From Beijerinckiaceae bacterium (GTDB lineage: Bacteria; Pseudomonadota; Alphaproteobacteria; Rhizobiales; Beijerinckiaceae), in contig CANBVC010000004.1 of the NCBI GenBank assembly GCA_947372795.1, positions 1-35,189 on the forward strand: a stretch of 35,189 nt of DNA, given 5' to 3'. The notes beneath the pieces are model-generated. The model had not been told where the DNA came from. It saw only the letters and a list, made by a program, of their open reading frames with translations, and did not search any database. Numbering within the stretch: the first letter of the stretch is position 1; every line of letters begins with the position of its first letter. The translations under genes and the position numbers were made by a program. Below, in pieces: positions 3,254 to 35,189 of this stretch.

Positions 3254-4582
3254 ATGCCCATCAACATCCTCATGCCCGCGCTGTCCCCGACGATGGAAAA
3301 GGGCAATATTGCCCGCTGGTTGAAAAAAGAAGGCGACTCGATCAAGTCCGGCGACGTCATCGCCGAGATCGAGACCGACAAGGCGACCATGGAAATCGAG
3401 GCGGTCGATGAAGGCGTGCTCGCCAAGATCCTTGTTCCCGACGGAACGGCCGACGTGCCCGTCAATCAGCTGATCGGCCTCATCGCCGCTGATGGCGAAG
3501 ACGTCAGCGCAGTCGCAGCGGCTGGCGGCGCCCCCGTCGCGGCTCCTGCACCGGCTGCCGCCGCAGCTCCTGCGTCCGCTCCCATCGCCGCACAGGCCGC
3601 GCCGGTTGCGGCTCCCGCAGCTGCGGCGCCTGCCACTGGCTCGCGCGTTTTCGCCTCGCCGCTCGCGCGTCGTATCGCCAAGGACGCCGGGCTCGACCTT
3701 TCCGTCGTGAGCGGCACTGGCCCGCATGGTCGTATCGTCGAGCGCGACGTGAAGGCCGCCATCGCTGGCGGCGTCAAGACTGCGCCTGCCGCTACCGCTG
3801 CCGCCGCTGCCGCTCCACAGGCCGCGCGCGCTCCCGTTGCCGCCATGGGCGATGAGCAGATCAAGAAATTCTACGAGCCAGGCAGCTACGAAGAAATTCC
3901 GCACGATTCTATGCGCAAGACCATCGCCCGCCGTCTGGTCGAAGCCAAGCAGACGATCCCGCATTTCTACCTCACGGTGGATTGCGATCTCGACAAGCTG
4001 CTGGCCCTGCGCGAGGAGATCAACAAGGCTGCCCCCATGGTCGATGGCAAGCCCGCCTATAAGGTCTCGGTCAATGACTTCGTGATCAAGGGCATGGCCC
4101 TGTCGCTGATGCGCGTGCCCGACGCCAATGTCACCTGGACCGAAGGCGCCATGCTGAAGCATCGCACCGCCGATGTCGGCGTCGCGGTGTCGATCCCCGG
4201 CGGTCTCATCACGCCCGTGGTGCGTAGCGCCGAGAAGAAGTCGCTGTCCGCCATCTCCAATGAGATGAAGGACTATGCGGCCCGCGCCCGCGCCCGTAAG
4301 CTCAAGCCCGAGGAATATCAGGGTGGCACATCGGCGGTGTCCAACCTCGGCATGTTCGGCATCAAGCACTTCTCGGCGGTCATCAACCCGCCCCACGCCA
4401 CCATTCTTGCGGTCGGCGCGGGCGAGCAGCGCGTGGTGGTGAAGAACGGCCAGCCTGCGGTCGCGACCGTGATGAGCGTGACGCTCTCCACGGATCACCG
4501 CGCGGTCGACGGCGCGCTTGGCGCGGAGCTGATCTCCGCCTTCAAGCAGCTGATCGAAAACCCGATGTCCATGCTGGTGTAA
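3254..4582 (+). CDS. pdhC: Dihydrolipoamide acetyltransferase, E2 component of pyruvate dehydrogenase
   Basis: Lipoyl domain, Ala/Pro linker, E3/E1-binding domain ([32 protein letters not shown]), catalytic domain ending [26 protein letters not shown]. Confidence 0.96.
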
Positions 4583-31534: not shown

Positions 31535-32614
31535 TCACTTAGGTCGACGTGGGGGGAGCATCAGCACTTCGGTGATGGGGTCCTTGCGCAGCGCGAGCAG
31601 TGGAGATTGCTGCTGAGGGGCTAGAGGCGAAGGCTGAGATGTCGAACGAGGTGAATTGTCGAACAAGGAGGCTTGCCGGGGAAGCAATGAGGAGCCGGAG
31701 GGAGGAAGCCCCAGATCGAAGGGCCTGCTGGGGGGCAGCGGAACATTCGAAGGCATGGCGGCGATGCGCGGTGCGGTCGCTGCGACGGGTTGCTGCGACG
31801 GTGGCGTTTCAGGCGACGACTGCTCGCGCGTTTCGTCAAGCAAAGCCAACTTCTGCGGCGCAGGCTGAGCGGGCGCTGGCGTATTCTGGGCGATCAGGGT
31901 GGCGGGCAAGGACGGCGAACCATCAAGCTGTGCGGGGCGTCCGTCAGTACGCAACGACGCCATCAGCTTATTGTCGTCGGAGCCCTGAAGCCCGGCCTTT
32001 CCGACATATTCAACCTTGATCTGCGCGGTACCGATCGACTTGAACGAGAGAGCTTCGGCGACGCGTGACGACACGTCCATGACGCGGCCAGAGTGATAGG
32101 GGCCGCGATCATTGACGCGCACGATGATGGAGCGACCGTTGCGGGTATTGGTCACGCGCGCATAGCTCGGCAGCGGCATTGTCGGATGGGCAGCCGAAAC
32201 AGAGTTCATGTCGTAGACTTCGCCATTGGCGGTCCGTCGACCATGGAAGGCGCCGCCGTAATAGGAAGCCATGCCGACCTGAGCCTCCCTGGGTAGGGTC
32301 TGCGGAACATAACGCTTGCCCGCGATCGTATAGGGACGGCCGACAAGGTACTGCCCGCCGCCGCGCGGCACAGCCTCGCCCTCCCCCACGACCCGCTCAC
32401 TGGCGCGACCATAGATAGACGAGGGGAAATATTCTTTCGAACGGACCCCAGATTTCGGATCTTGGGCGCACCCGGCAAGCAACCCGGCCCCGACGATGCA
32501 AAGAATCACACGCGCGGCGAATCGCGCCGCCGGATTCACGGAGCTGAACATCTCTGAAGACACTGATTCAGCCATAACGCGATACGCTTCACTCGAAAGC
32601 CTGCAACTGCGCAT
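31535..32614 (-). CDS. rlpA: RlpA-like septal ring lytic transglycosylase lipoprotein
   Basis: Lipobox-like AGLLAGC; QVGMASYYGGAFHGRRTANGEVYDMNSVSAAHPTMPLPSYARVTNTRNGRSIIVRVNDRGPY. Confidence 0.9.
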   Translation of the reverse strand: MRSCRLSSEAYRVMAESVSSEMFSSVNPAARFAARVILCIVGAGLLAGCAQDPKSGVRSKEYFPSSIYGRASERVVGEGEAVPRGGGQYLVGRPYTIAGKRYVPQTLPREAQVGMASYYGGAFHGRRTANGEVYDMNSVSAAHPTMPLPSYARVTNTRNGRSIIVRVNDRGPYHSGRVMDVSSRVAEALSFKSIGTAQIKVEYVGKAGLQGSDDNKLMASLRTDGRPAQLDGSPSLPATLIAQNTPAPAQPAPQKLALLDETREQSSPETPPSQQPVAATAPRIAAMPSNVPLPPSRPFDLGLPPSGSSLLPRQASLFDNSPRSTSQPSPLAPQQQSPLLALRKDPITEVLMLPPRRPK

Positions 32615-32878
32615 CGGTGCTACCCCTCGCTACACTGGGCTTTTGAGGGCCAGAGCGCGCTAGCGGAACACCGCGAACACGCTCACTCTGCAGCTTTTTG
32701 GTTTCAAAAGCCTTAACCCAAATCGTCGGCCAAGCTTCCGTAGTTATCCCTTTTGGCCCTCTGACTGTGACCAAATTGCGGCGAAGGCTCAGCTCTACCG
32801 CTCTCGCGTCTGCAGTGCAACCGCAAGGGGTACCGGCTCGTTGGCGACGCAGAAGAGCGTTTCTGAAGGGAGTGAAAC

Positions 32879-33274
32879 ATGGAAGTAGCGATCGACAAGG
32901 CGATCACGGTGGGTAGTTCAAACGTTGAAATTGGGGAGGCCCTAGCCGAGCGTGCACGTAGCGCGCTCTCCGATTTGGCGTCCCGTTATTTCGGGCGCAT
33001 CACGACCGGCTCAGTTCATTTCGGCCGGGAGGGCGTTGATTATCGCTGCTCGGTCAATATGCAATGCGGCGGCGTGCCTATGATGAGCGCCGAGGCCAGC
33101 AACAAGGACCCCTACGTCGCCCTTACCGTCGCGATCGACAAACTCGGCAAGCAATTGCGCCGGGCCAAACGGAGCCTCAGGGACGCAAAGACGGTGCACG
33201 GGACAAAGGGCATTCCCGAGGTTTCAGGCGAGGTACTAAGGCTTGACGGCCGCGGCGTTCAATCCAAGGTCTGA
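32879..33274 (+). CDS. Short HPF/RaiA-like ribosome-associated protein
   Basis: Pattern matches the HPF N-domain: VEIGEALAERARSALSDLASRYFGRITTGSVHFGREGVDYRCSVNM...AEASNKDPYVALTVAIDKLGKQLRRAKRSLRD; lacks the C-terminal domain of long HPF; RBS GAAGGGAG. Confidence 0.78.
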   Translation: MEVAIDKAITVGSSNVEIGEALAERARSALSDLASRYFGRITTGSVHFGREGVDYRCSVNMQCGGVPMMSAEASNKDPYVALTVAIDKLGKQLRRAKRSLRDAKTVHGTKGIPEVSGEVLRLDGRGVQSKV

Positions 33275-34969
33275 ATGAAGCGGTATGGTCGCCTCAAACC
33301 GCAGCCCCGGCGACGCCGTCTCAAAATGGCAGACGCCGCCAAGCTGCCTTTCGACGCAGATGCGGACGATCGTCGTTCCTAGGCCTTTCAAGGCCTCGAT
33401 CGTCGGGGGCTCGCTGGACGTCTCGATCCATACAAAGTGGATCTTGCCCTCCTCCAGTCGCCAGGTCAGCGTCACACGTCCGTCGGGGCGTGACAGGCTG
33501 CCGTGCTTCTCTGCATTCACCAACAATTCATGAAAAATCTGGGCGAATGCGACGACAACGCGCGGCTCAAGACTGACTCTGTCTCCTTCGAAATAGATTC
33601 GTTCGCTCTCCCGGGCGAGGACTGCAGCCGCAACGCTCGCGAGTTCCGGGTCTTTCCAGTTCGCGGCGCTCAGCACTTCATGGGAACGCGCAAGCGCCAT
33701 GACGCGCCCGATGATGGCGTCCCGGAAATGGGCGGGCGTGACCGAGCCGCGAAAACTCTGGGTCACGAGCGATTGTATGATCGCTAGCGTATTTTTCACG
33801 CGATGGTCGAGTTCGTGCAGCAGAGTGCGCTGGTGGACGTCCTTGCGTTTCAGGTCGGCGTCAGCGAGGCTAAGAAGCTTACTCACCTCATCAATTTCGA
33901 CGACGGCGGTTGGACCAGCCGGAACGAAATCTTCTCGCCCGACGCAGCGGGCCGACTGGGCGAGCATGCTGAGACCCCGGCGAAGAATGCGCCCGGAGAG
34001 ATAAGCGCCCAGCAGTGATACGGCGATGGCGAGCAGGCCCATCATCACCAGCGTCCGCCACAGATCCCTGAGCGGCGCATTGAGTATATCTTCGGGTATT
34101 GCGAAGGACACGACCCAGCGGGACAGCGCCGAGCGTTGAAATGCGCTGAAGACCGGGGCCCCCTCAAGGGATCTTCCACCATGGAAGTTGCCGCTTTCCC
34201 CTTCAAACATGAAGCGCGCCGGTTGGTTCGGGAACTGGCCGACGAACCGCTCCTGATCGCGCGATCGTGCGATGATGCGTAAATTGCGGTCGAAAATGCC
34301 GCCTATCCAGCCCTCGGGTACATTCGCCAGAAGCTGCTGGCTGAGGGCCGCCGGGGCGAGTGCGATGGCCAGTACAAAACGCACTTCATTATCGCGGATC
34401 ACCGGTACGCCCACATTCACGAACAGTAACTTGGTGGCGGCGCCTACATATATATTGGATACAGCAGGCGCTTTCGTACGGAAGATCTCCGCATCATTCG
34501 CCAACAGTTCAGGATCCGTGCTGACAAGGGCCTCAGCTCCTGCGGGCTGAAGCGTATTTATGACGTGGTGGCCGTTTCGGTCGCGCATGACCACCGCAGT
34601 TCCGCGGAAATTCAGGAGCTCGAAAGCCTGACCGCGAAGGTGTTCATAATCCTTAACGTCGATCAGCGGCGAGGTCGCCAGCGCCTGCAGAGCGCCTATG
34701 ACGCCCTCAAGCTCACGGTCGAGGGAAGCCGTGCGCTCACGCACCATGACCGTGGCTGCCTGTTCTAGCGAAACCTTCTGCCCATTGGTGTAGCGCCAGT
34801 CGATAACTGCCGAGAGAAACACCTGCGGCAAGAGCACATGCAGGCTCAAGATAAGCAGATGCTGGACGAGCGTGAACTGGGGGAACCGAAAGGCGGACCC
34901 TGGCTTCATGGTTTTGAAATCCATCCTGCGATCACGTCCCTGCCCGATTGTAACAGCACCGCGTTCCAT
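33236..34969 (-). CDS. Membrane sensor histidine kinase, HWE/HisKA_2 family, with extracytoplasmic sensing domain
   Basis: TM1 near N-terminus, extracytoplasmic region, TM2 LVMMGLLAIAVSLLGAYLSGRIL, H-box LLHELDHRVKNTLAIIQSLVTQSFRG, HATPase FHELLVNAEKHGSLS; no receiver gene next to it in the window. Confidence 0.85.
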   Translation of the reverse strand: MERGAVTIGQGRDRRMDFKTMKPGSAFRFPQFTLVQHLLILSLHVLLPQVFLSAVIDWRYTNGQKVSLEQAATVMVRERTASLDRELEGVIGALQALATSPLIDVKDYEHLRGQAFELLNFRGTAVVMRDRNGHHVINTLQPAGAEALVSTDPELLANDAEIFRTKAPAVSNIYVGAATKLLFVNVGVPVIRDNEVRFVLAIALAPAALSQQLLANVPEGWIGGIFDRNLRIIARSRDQERFVGQFPNQPARFMFEGESGNFHGGRSLEGAPVFSAFQRSALSRWVVSFAIPEDILNAPLRDLWRTLVMMGLLAIAVSLLGAYLSGRILRRGLSMLAQSARCVGREDFVPAGPTAVVEIDEVSKLLSLADADLKRKDVHQRTLLHELDHRVKNTLAIIQSLVTQSFRGSVTPAHFRDAIIGRVMALARSHEVLSAANWKDPELASVAAAVLARESERIYFEGDRVSLEPRVVVAFAQIFHELLVNAEKHGSLSRPDGRVTLTWRLEEGKIHFVWIETSSEPPTIEALKGLGTTIVRICVERQLGGVCHFETASPGLRFEATIPLHSDLGLNAAAVKP

Positions 34970-34983
34970 CGGTTCCGGCCCTG

Positions 34984-35012
34984 TTGACAGGAGCCCTACG
35001 CGACGAGAACAT
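34984..35012 (+). promoter_or_regulatory. Candidate promoter for the TauD-like gene
   Basis: Consensus -35 TTGACA at 34984-34989; 17-nt spacer; weak -10 GAACAT. Confidence 0.2.
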
Positions 35013-35046
35013 CGGGACTGACAAAGGAAAAACGGGGGAAACGCGC

Positions 35047-35189
35047 ATGGCGATCTCGGTGACGCCCATAAATGACGCTTTTGTGGCGCGGATGGATGGA
35101 ATTGACCTGCGCGCCGATCACAGCGCCGCCGTGCTAGACGCTATCGAGGGAGCGCTCGACCAATTCGCCGTCGTGATCCTGCCAGCGCA
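35047..35189 (+). CDS. TauD/TfdA-family dioxygenase, N-terminal fragment cut by the window edge
   Basis: MAISVTPINDAFVARMDGIDLRADHSAAVLDAIEGALDQFAVVILPA; RBS-like AAAGGAAAAACGGGGG upstream; open to the window end. Confidence 0.7.
   Translation, partial: MAISVTPINDAFVARMDGIDLRADHSAAVLDAIEGALDQFAVVILPA

Follow-up and report, generated by a model that had tools for sequence, protein, structure and literature searches.

A short HPF/RaiA-family gene, here designated hpfS, and a gene for an HWE sensor histidine kinase face each other toward the right end of the window, the whole stretch of 35,189 nucleotides of Beijerinckiaceae DNA that was analyzed, and each gene shows a sigma-EcfG-type promoter element at its outer end. 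These shared stress-type promoters are a likelier account of the gene pairing than the 39-bp overlap of the two 3' ends. The favored reading, with a probability of about two in three, is that two genes of the general stress response (GSR) face each other: sigma-EcfG would transcribe both, HpfS would silence 70S monomers, the kinase would re-tune the stress switch, and the overlap would have no function. Here, stress would activate PhyR and thereby release sigma-EcfG from NepR, followed by transcription of hpfS and the kinase gene from their outward-lying promoters. HpfS, which would act without a dimerization domain, is proposed to bind the decoding region of the 70S ribosome and to silence ribosomes as monomers, either together with the housekeeping long HPF or competing with it. 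The kinase, an HWE enzyme of the PhyR-controlling family, would adjust the stress switch, and the tail-to-tail layout would amount to compact packing. A dedicated GSR module, with facing sigma-EcfG promoters, feedback of the kinase on PhyR, and 70S monomers formed by HpfS as opposed to the dimers of the long HPF, is a tentative proposal and on balance a doubtful one.

Hibernation factors under general-stress control are known from other bacteria, such as Escherichia coli and Bacillus; a literature search found no report linking the EcfG response to a ribosome-hibernation factor. If the favored reading is true, a hibernation factor under sigma-EcfG would be a missing link from the alphaproteobacterial GSR to the shutdown of translation. 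The promoters described here are concrete and testable, and they suggest a reason for the second, short HPF of some of these bacteria. The 39-bp overlap is not to be taken for a regulatory device.

HpfS as a short HPF/RaiA paralogue

The original prediction placed an HPF-like reading frame at positions 32879 to 33274 of the plus strand, the end of a kinase frame at 33236 of the minus strand, and a 39-bp tail-to-tail overlap between them; all of this is exact, and inspection of the sequence locates the overlap of the two opposite strands at 33236 to 33274. The hpfS gene (32879 to 33274, plus strand) encodes 131 amino acids and is preceded by the Shine-Dalgarno-like sequence GAAGGGAG at 32865 to 32872 of the same strand, recognized by inspection. 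The proposed HPF-like identity is borne out by the HMM search, in which HpfS matches Pfam Ribosomal_S30AE (PF02482; E value of 1.4e-13, residues 9 to 100, 51.8 bits against a curated cut-off of 23.7) and NCBIfam yfiA (TIGR00741; 46.0 against a cut-off of 40.9). The phmmer comparison with E. coli HPF gives 9e-6. An AF2 model built with 15 homologues (mean pLDDT of 74) shows the beta-alpha-beta3-alpha fold of HPF, and Foldseek aligns it to E. coli HPF with an E value of 1.5e-7 and a TM-score of 0.89 by target length, the top matches all being HPF, YfiA, or protein Y. The S30AE domain extends over approximately residues 9 to 102, and the tail of residues 106 to 131 is predicted to be disordered.

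A C-terminal dimerization domain is absent from HpfS, in which PF02482 is the only domain found and which ends soon after it, in agreement with the claim of an N-terminal domain alone. The expected second, long HPF was located at another site of the genome as a protein of 191 amino acids encoded between rpoN-like and ptsN-like genes (neighbors named from sequence), and hpfS is thus an additional paralogue. The idea that HpfS is a truncated long HPF was discarded on the basis of a maximum-likelihood tree, in which a 100/100 branch sets a clade of 15 short proteins, drawn from this genus and a few others in the order, apart from 34 long-HPF N-terminal domains. The ribosome modulation factor RMF (PF04957) was not found in three genomes searched (the genome analyzed here, G000, and its relatives G033 and G005; other G numbers likewise denote relatives compared), and the E. 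coli positive control was detected. E. coli-style dimerization by HPF and RMF is therefore unavailable in these three genomes. HpfS probably binds to ribosomes, and a RaiA-like role on 70S monomers would be the simplest one.

Sigma-EcfG-type promoter elements of both genes

The genome encodes ecfG, nepR, and phyR (locus L062), confirmed by Pfam and equipped with GGAAC-N16-CGTT elements, as well as further ECF-type sigma factors. Upstream of hpfS lies the element GCAACCGCAAGGGGTACCGGCTCGTT (GCAAC-N17-CGTT; 32817 to 32842, plus strand), which ends 36 bp before the ATG. GCAAC-N16/17-CGTT is conserved upstream of hpfS in all six species of the genus that keep the pair and ends 30 to 36 bp from the ATG; the strict pattern, defined as G[G/C]AAC-N16/17-CGTT, occurs at 0 of 1,481 background starts. 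A relaxed form is present at the same distance in 11 of the 14 copies of the genus, compared to 3 of the 1,481 background starts, and none of 33 long hpf genes shows an element of the hpfS type. Outside the genus, GCAAC-N16-CGTT lies 32 bp from the short hpf start in G416, from another genus of the family, and GAAAC-N16-CGTT lies 29 bp from that in G234, from another family. No element was found upstream of the short hpf genes of G017, G015 (a pseudogene), G270, G230, and G313 or of the second copy of G026, nor before the plasmid-borne short hpf copies of Methylorubrum and Microvirga. An EcfG promoter common to all short HPF paralogues was rejected on account of the copies of G270, G230, G313, Methylorubrum, and Microvirga.

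The kinase element GGAACCGATGGAACGCGGTGCTGTT (GGAAC-N16-TGTT; 34952 to 34976, minus strand) ends 27 bp upstream of an ATG, that at 34924, which is codon 16 of the originally listed frame. It takes the form GGAACC-N15-[T/G]GTTACAA, in which GGAACC and GTTACAA are invariant in the six species and in the contig of a second strain, with variable bases around the element. The sigma-EcfG consensus described for Methylobacterium is GAAC-N16,17-C/GGTT (PMC4814048). The kinase promoter matches it completely in G016, G036, and G005 and has TGTT for GGTT in G000, G028, and G033. The hpfS promoter agrees with it in the -10 region and the spacing and has CAAC instead of GAAC in the -35 region, so that its GCAAC is one base off the canonical GGAAC used by the genome's own GSR core. 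EcfG-dependent genes of Sphingomonas melonis include GCAACC...CGTT forms located 25 to 34 bp before the coding sequence (PMC6599016).

A scan of 2,094 ORF starts with a single pattern gave 30 matches, 26 of them at hpfS, this kinase, or phyR. These comprise 12 at hpfS, 9 at the kinase, and 5 at 272-amino-acid frames of GSR loci (the frame in L062 being phyR according to Pfam), besides 2 more in GSR loci and 2 elsewhere; matches were attributed by position, and several genes were counted at two adjacent start codons. GCAACC-N15/16-CGTT is not enriched genome-wide over the control, and the promoter claim therefore depends on where the elements lie and on their conservation; the sites of the six species are not independent, given the common ancestry of these bacteria. 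This dependence, the changed base in the hpfS -35 region, the TGTT of the window kinase, and the short hpf copies that lack the element count against the favored reading, under which both promoters are likely to be recognized by sigma-EcfG.

The HWE kinase

The kinase gene (33236 to 34924, minus strand) encodes 562 amino acids with the start corrected by upstream alignment. Its predicted HWE identity proved right: the protein matches HWE_HK (PF07536) with an E value of 6e-21 and 75.4 bits and shows an H box (HRVKN), the WxE motif, and N and G boxes, the H-, N-, and G-box residues being invariant in five orthologues. The start first given for the gene, 34969, is very probably wrong, since it lies inside the conserved promoter element and is not kept in three of the six species; judged from the alignment, 34924 or 34909 (557 amino acids) is the probable start. 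The sensor region is probably membrane bound and Cache-like at best, with a weak dCache_1 match confined to the kinase homologue of G029. An AF2 model from five sequences reached a pLDDT of 41 and was set aside.

HWE kinases serve other pathways besides the GSR, which counts against a GSR role of this enzyme. HWE/HisKA2 kinases are described as coordinating GSR activation (PMC12148442). The window kinase may have PhyR as its target and exert feedback on it.

Gene order in relatives

The pair is flanked by two synteny markers. The divergent left neighbor is a gene for an RlpA-like lytic transglycosylase (31535 to 32614, minus strand; PF03330), the position of which is kept in relatives, and the right neighbor is a TauD/TfdA-family dioxygenase gene (35047 to 35189, plus strand) truncated at the contig end. 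A full-length copy of the latter on contig C32 matches PF02668 with 9e-61. The order rlpA (minus), hpfS (plus), HWE kinase (minus) is kept in six species of the genus, spread over two contigs in G005, and a tauD-like gene comes next wherever the contig reaches. The pair is thus linked among close relatives, and the picture of a stress-related ribosome factor adjoining a signaling kinase is supported by these six species and by the additional nature of hpfS beside the long HPF.

Other relatives separate the two genes. G029 has rlpA, the kinase, and tauD without hpfS. In G017, hpfS stands at the locus, followed by NMT1-like and tauD-like genes in place of the kinase, a distant homologue of which lies on a different contig. 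In G015, hpfS immediately precedes the tauD-like gene (locus L040) and contains two in-frame stops, as in a decaying copy or pseudogene. The hpfS genes of other members of the genus are found at unrelated loci. Overall, gain or loss at this one site has affected each gene independently of the other.

Origin of the overlap and alternative explanations

The junction differs among the six species, with an overlap of 39 bp in the window only, 4 bp in G028, G033, and G016, and gaps of 66 bp in G036 (derived from ORF lengths) and 96 bp in G005; of the conservation at issue, the pairing is retained and the 39-bp overlap belongs to a single species. The 4-bp overlaps consist of the stop-stop tetramers TTAA or CTAG, and the window contains a tetramer of the same kind, CTAA at 33236 to 33239, which combines the kinase stop (TAG on the minus strand) with an out-of-frame TAA on the plus strand. 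Near the junction the hpfS frame is shifted by one or more indels, which put this TAA out of frame; hpfS therefore reads on for 14 codons to a new stop, TGA at 33272. The resulting extension EVLRLDGRGVQSKV (33230 to 33271, plus strand) is particular to the window, mostly antisense to the kinase C terminus, and missing in all orthologues, which mostly end after ...PEVS(R/G) and after ...PEAAG in G033. Some 27 unrelated C-terminal residues had been proposed: the last 14 are indeed new, and the first 14 or so, up to ...PEVS, are common to the orthologues. From these alignments, the overlap is best interpreted as a recent, lineage-specific loss of the stop codon with no function of its own.

Such an overlap would belong to an ordinary class. 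Four bases are the modal overlap length in prokaryotes, with CTAA, TTAA, CTAG, and TTAG as convergent tetramers (PMC2174442), a state identical to that of three relatives here. Longer overlaps are known to originate, or to appear as artifacts, when a lost stop codon or a frameshift extends a 3' end (PMC2478687), and the HpfS extension in the window follows the same mechanism.

Coupling of hpfS to the kinase by antisense RNA or polymerase collision at the overlapping 3' ends, as originally suggested, is unsupported and highly improbable. The overlap is real, six species keep the two genes convergent, and the search for an intrinsic terminator at the hpfS-kinase junction was negative, so that read-through from both sides is possible, the more so if both genes are co-induced. 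However, the overlap shrinks to 4 bp or gives way to a gap in the relatives, the genes occur apart in G029, G017, and G015, and the extra coding overlap alters just an unconserved tail. It is the unconserved overlap and the separability of the genes that led to rejection of this coupling as the main explanation. An error of assembly or consensus, in which one or two miscalled bases push the HPF frame past a real stop in CTAA at 33236 to 33239, is a little less improbable but still quite unlikely. The plus-strand TAA completes the relatives' kind of 4-bp stop pair, albeit out of frame, and the draft genome, in 330 contigs, shows strain variation. Against this, the assembly contains the junction once and no contig contradicts it, although no second contig spans it, and many bases of the segment are unlike those of the sister species, so that divergence is to be expected.

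The two genes could also be plain neighbors, placed together by chance and kept so by the rlpA-tauD synteny, with the elements arising by chance or serving another ECF sigma factor. The independent gains and losses at this site fit such a history, as do the variant -35 region of hpfS and the other ECF-type sigma factors of the genome. The strict element at a fixed distance in 6 of 6 hpfS orthologues against 0 of 1,481 background starts speaks against it, as does the kinase element, invariant amid varying bases and conforming to a pattern that also recovers phyR; a plain-neighbor arrangement is hence unlikely. Two GSR genes facing each other under sigma-EcfG remain the preferred interpretation.

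Comparison with known systems

HpfS resembles E. coli HPF/YhbH and RaiA/YfiA (protein Y) in the S30AE domain, the fold, the size of approximately 95 to 130 amino acids, and a basic C-terminal helix, and these are its best matches among solved structures. It differs in an identity of only ∼30%, the absence of RMF from the three genomes searched, the presence of a long HPF as well, and a clade of its own among the alphaproteobacterial sequences compared. The N-terminal domain of the long HPF of the rpoN-hpf-ptsN locus is homologous to HpfS with 29% identity; HpfS differs from it in locus, in having no dimerization domain, and in the stress-type promoter, absent from the 33 long hpf genes. The closest three short HPF/RaiA proteins from plasmids of Methylorubrum extorquens CM4 and Microvirga are 39 to 49% identical to HpfS over the domain, but their genes show no EcfG-type element, have other neighbors, and, where annotated, have no kinase annotated nearby. 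On the conjugative plasmid pCMU01 of strain CM4 (L137), the paralogue, annotated as HPF/RaiA, stands beside genes for a universal stress protein and a PAS protein, and one plasmid copy in Microvirga has rnk and PTS IIA genes in its vicinity. A plasmid origin of the window locus was rejected, as it shows no match to plasmid DNA.

The window kinase shares the HWE_HK domain and HWE motifs with the GSR kinases PhyK, LovhK, and the Paks, and it has a GSR-type promoter. In contrast to these kinases, it is not adjacent to phyR and has the probably membrane-bound sensor region described above.

Further observations

At L062 (positions 3563 to 4389), genes for KGG-repeat stress-type proteins lie beside phyR and have GGAAC-N16-CGTT elements that face each other; they are likely to be additional EcfG targets. 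The end of the window, 34517 to 35189, overlaps contig C32 of the same genome (L136) with 94.5% identity across 675 bp, which indicates either two strains mixed in the draft or a binning artifact. Two further conserved blocks lie between rlpA and hpfS. TGTGACCAAATTGCGG (TGTGAC..ATTGGGGC in relatives), strongly conserved at 32766 to 32781 and ∼100 bp 5' of hpfS, may be a regulator site or part of the rlpA promoter. The other block (TTGGTTTC.AAAGCCTTAAC), at 32695 to 32718, is nearer rlpA and is possibly the promoter of that gene.
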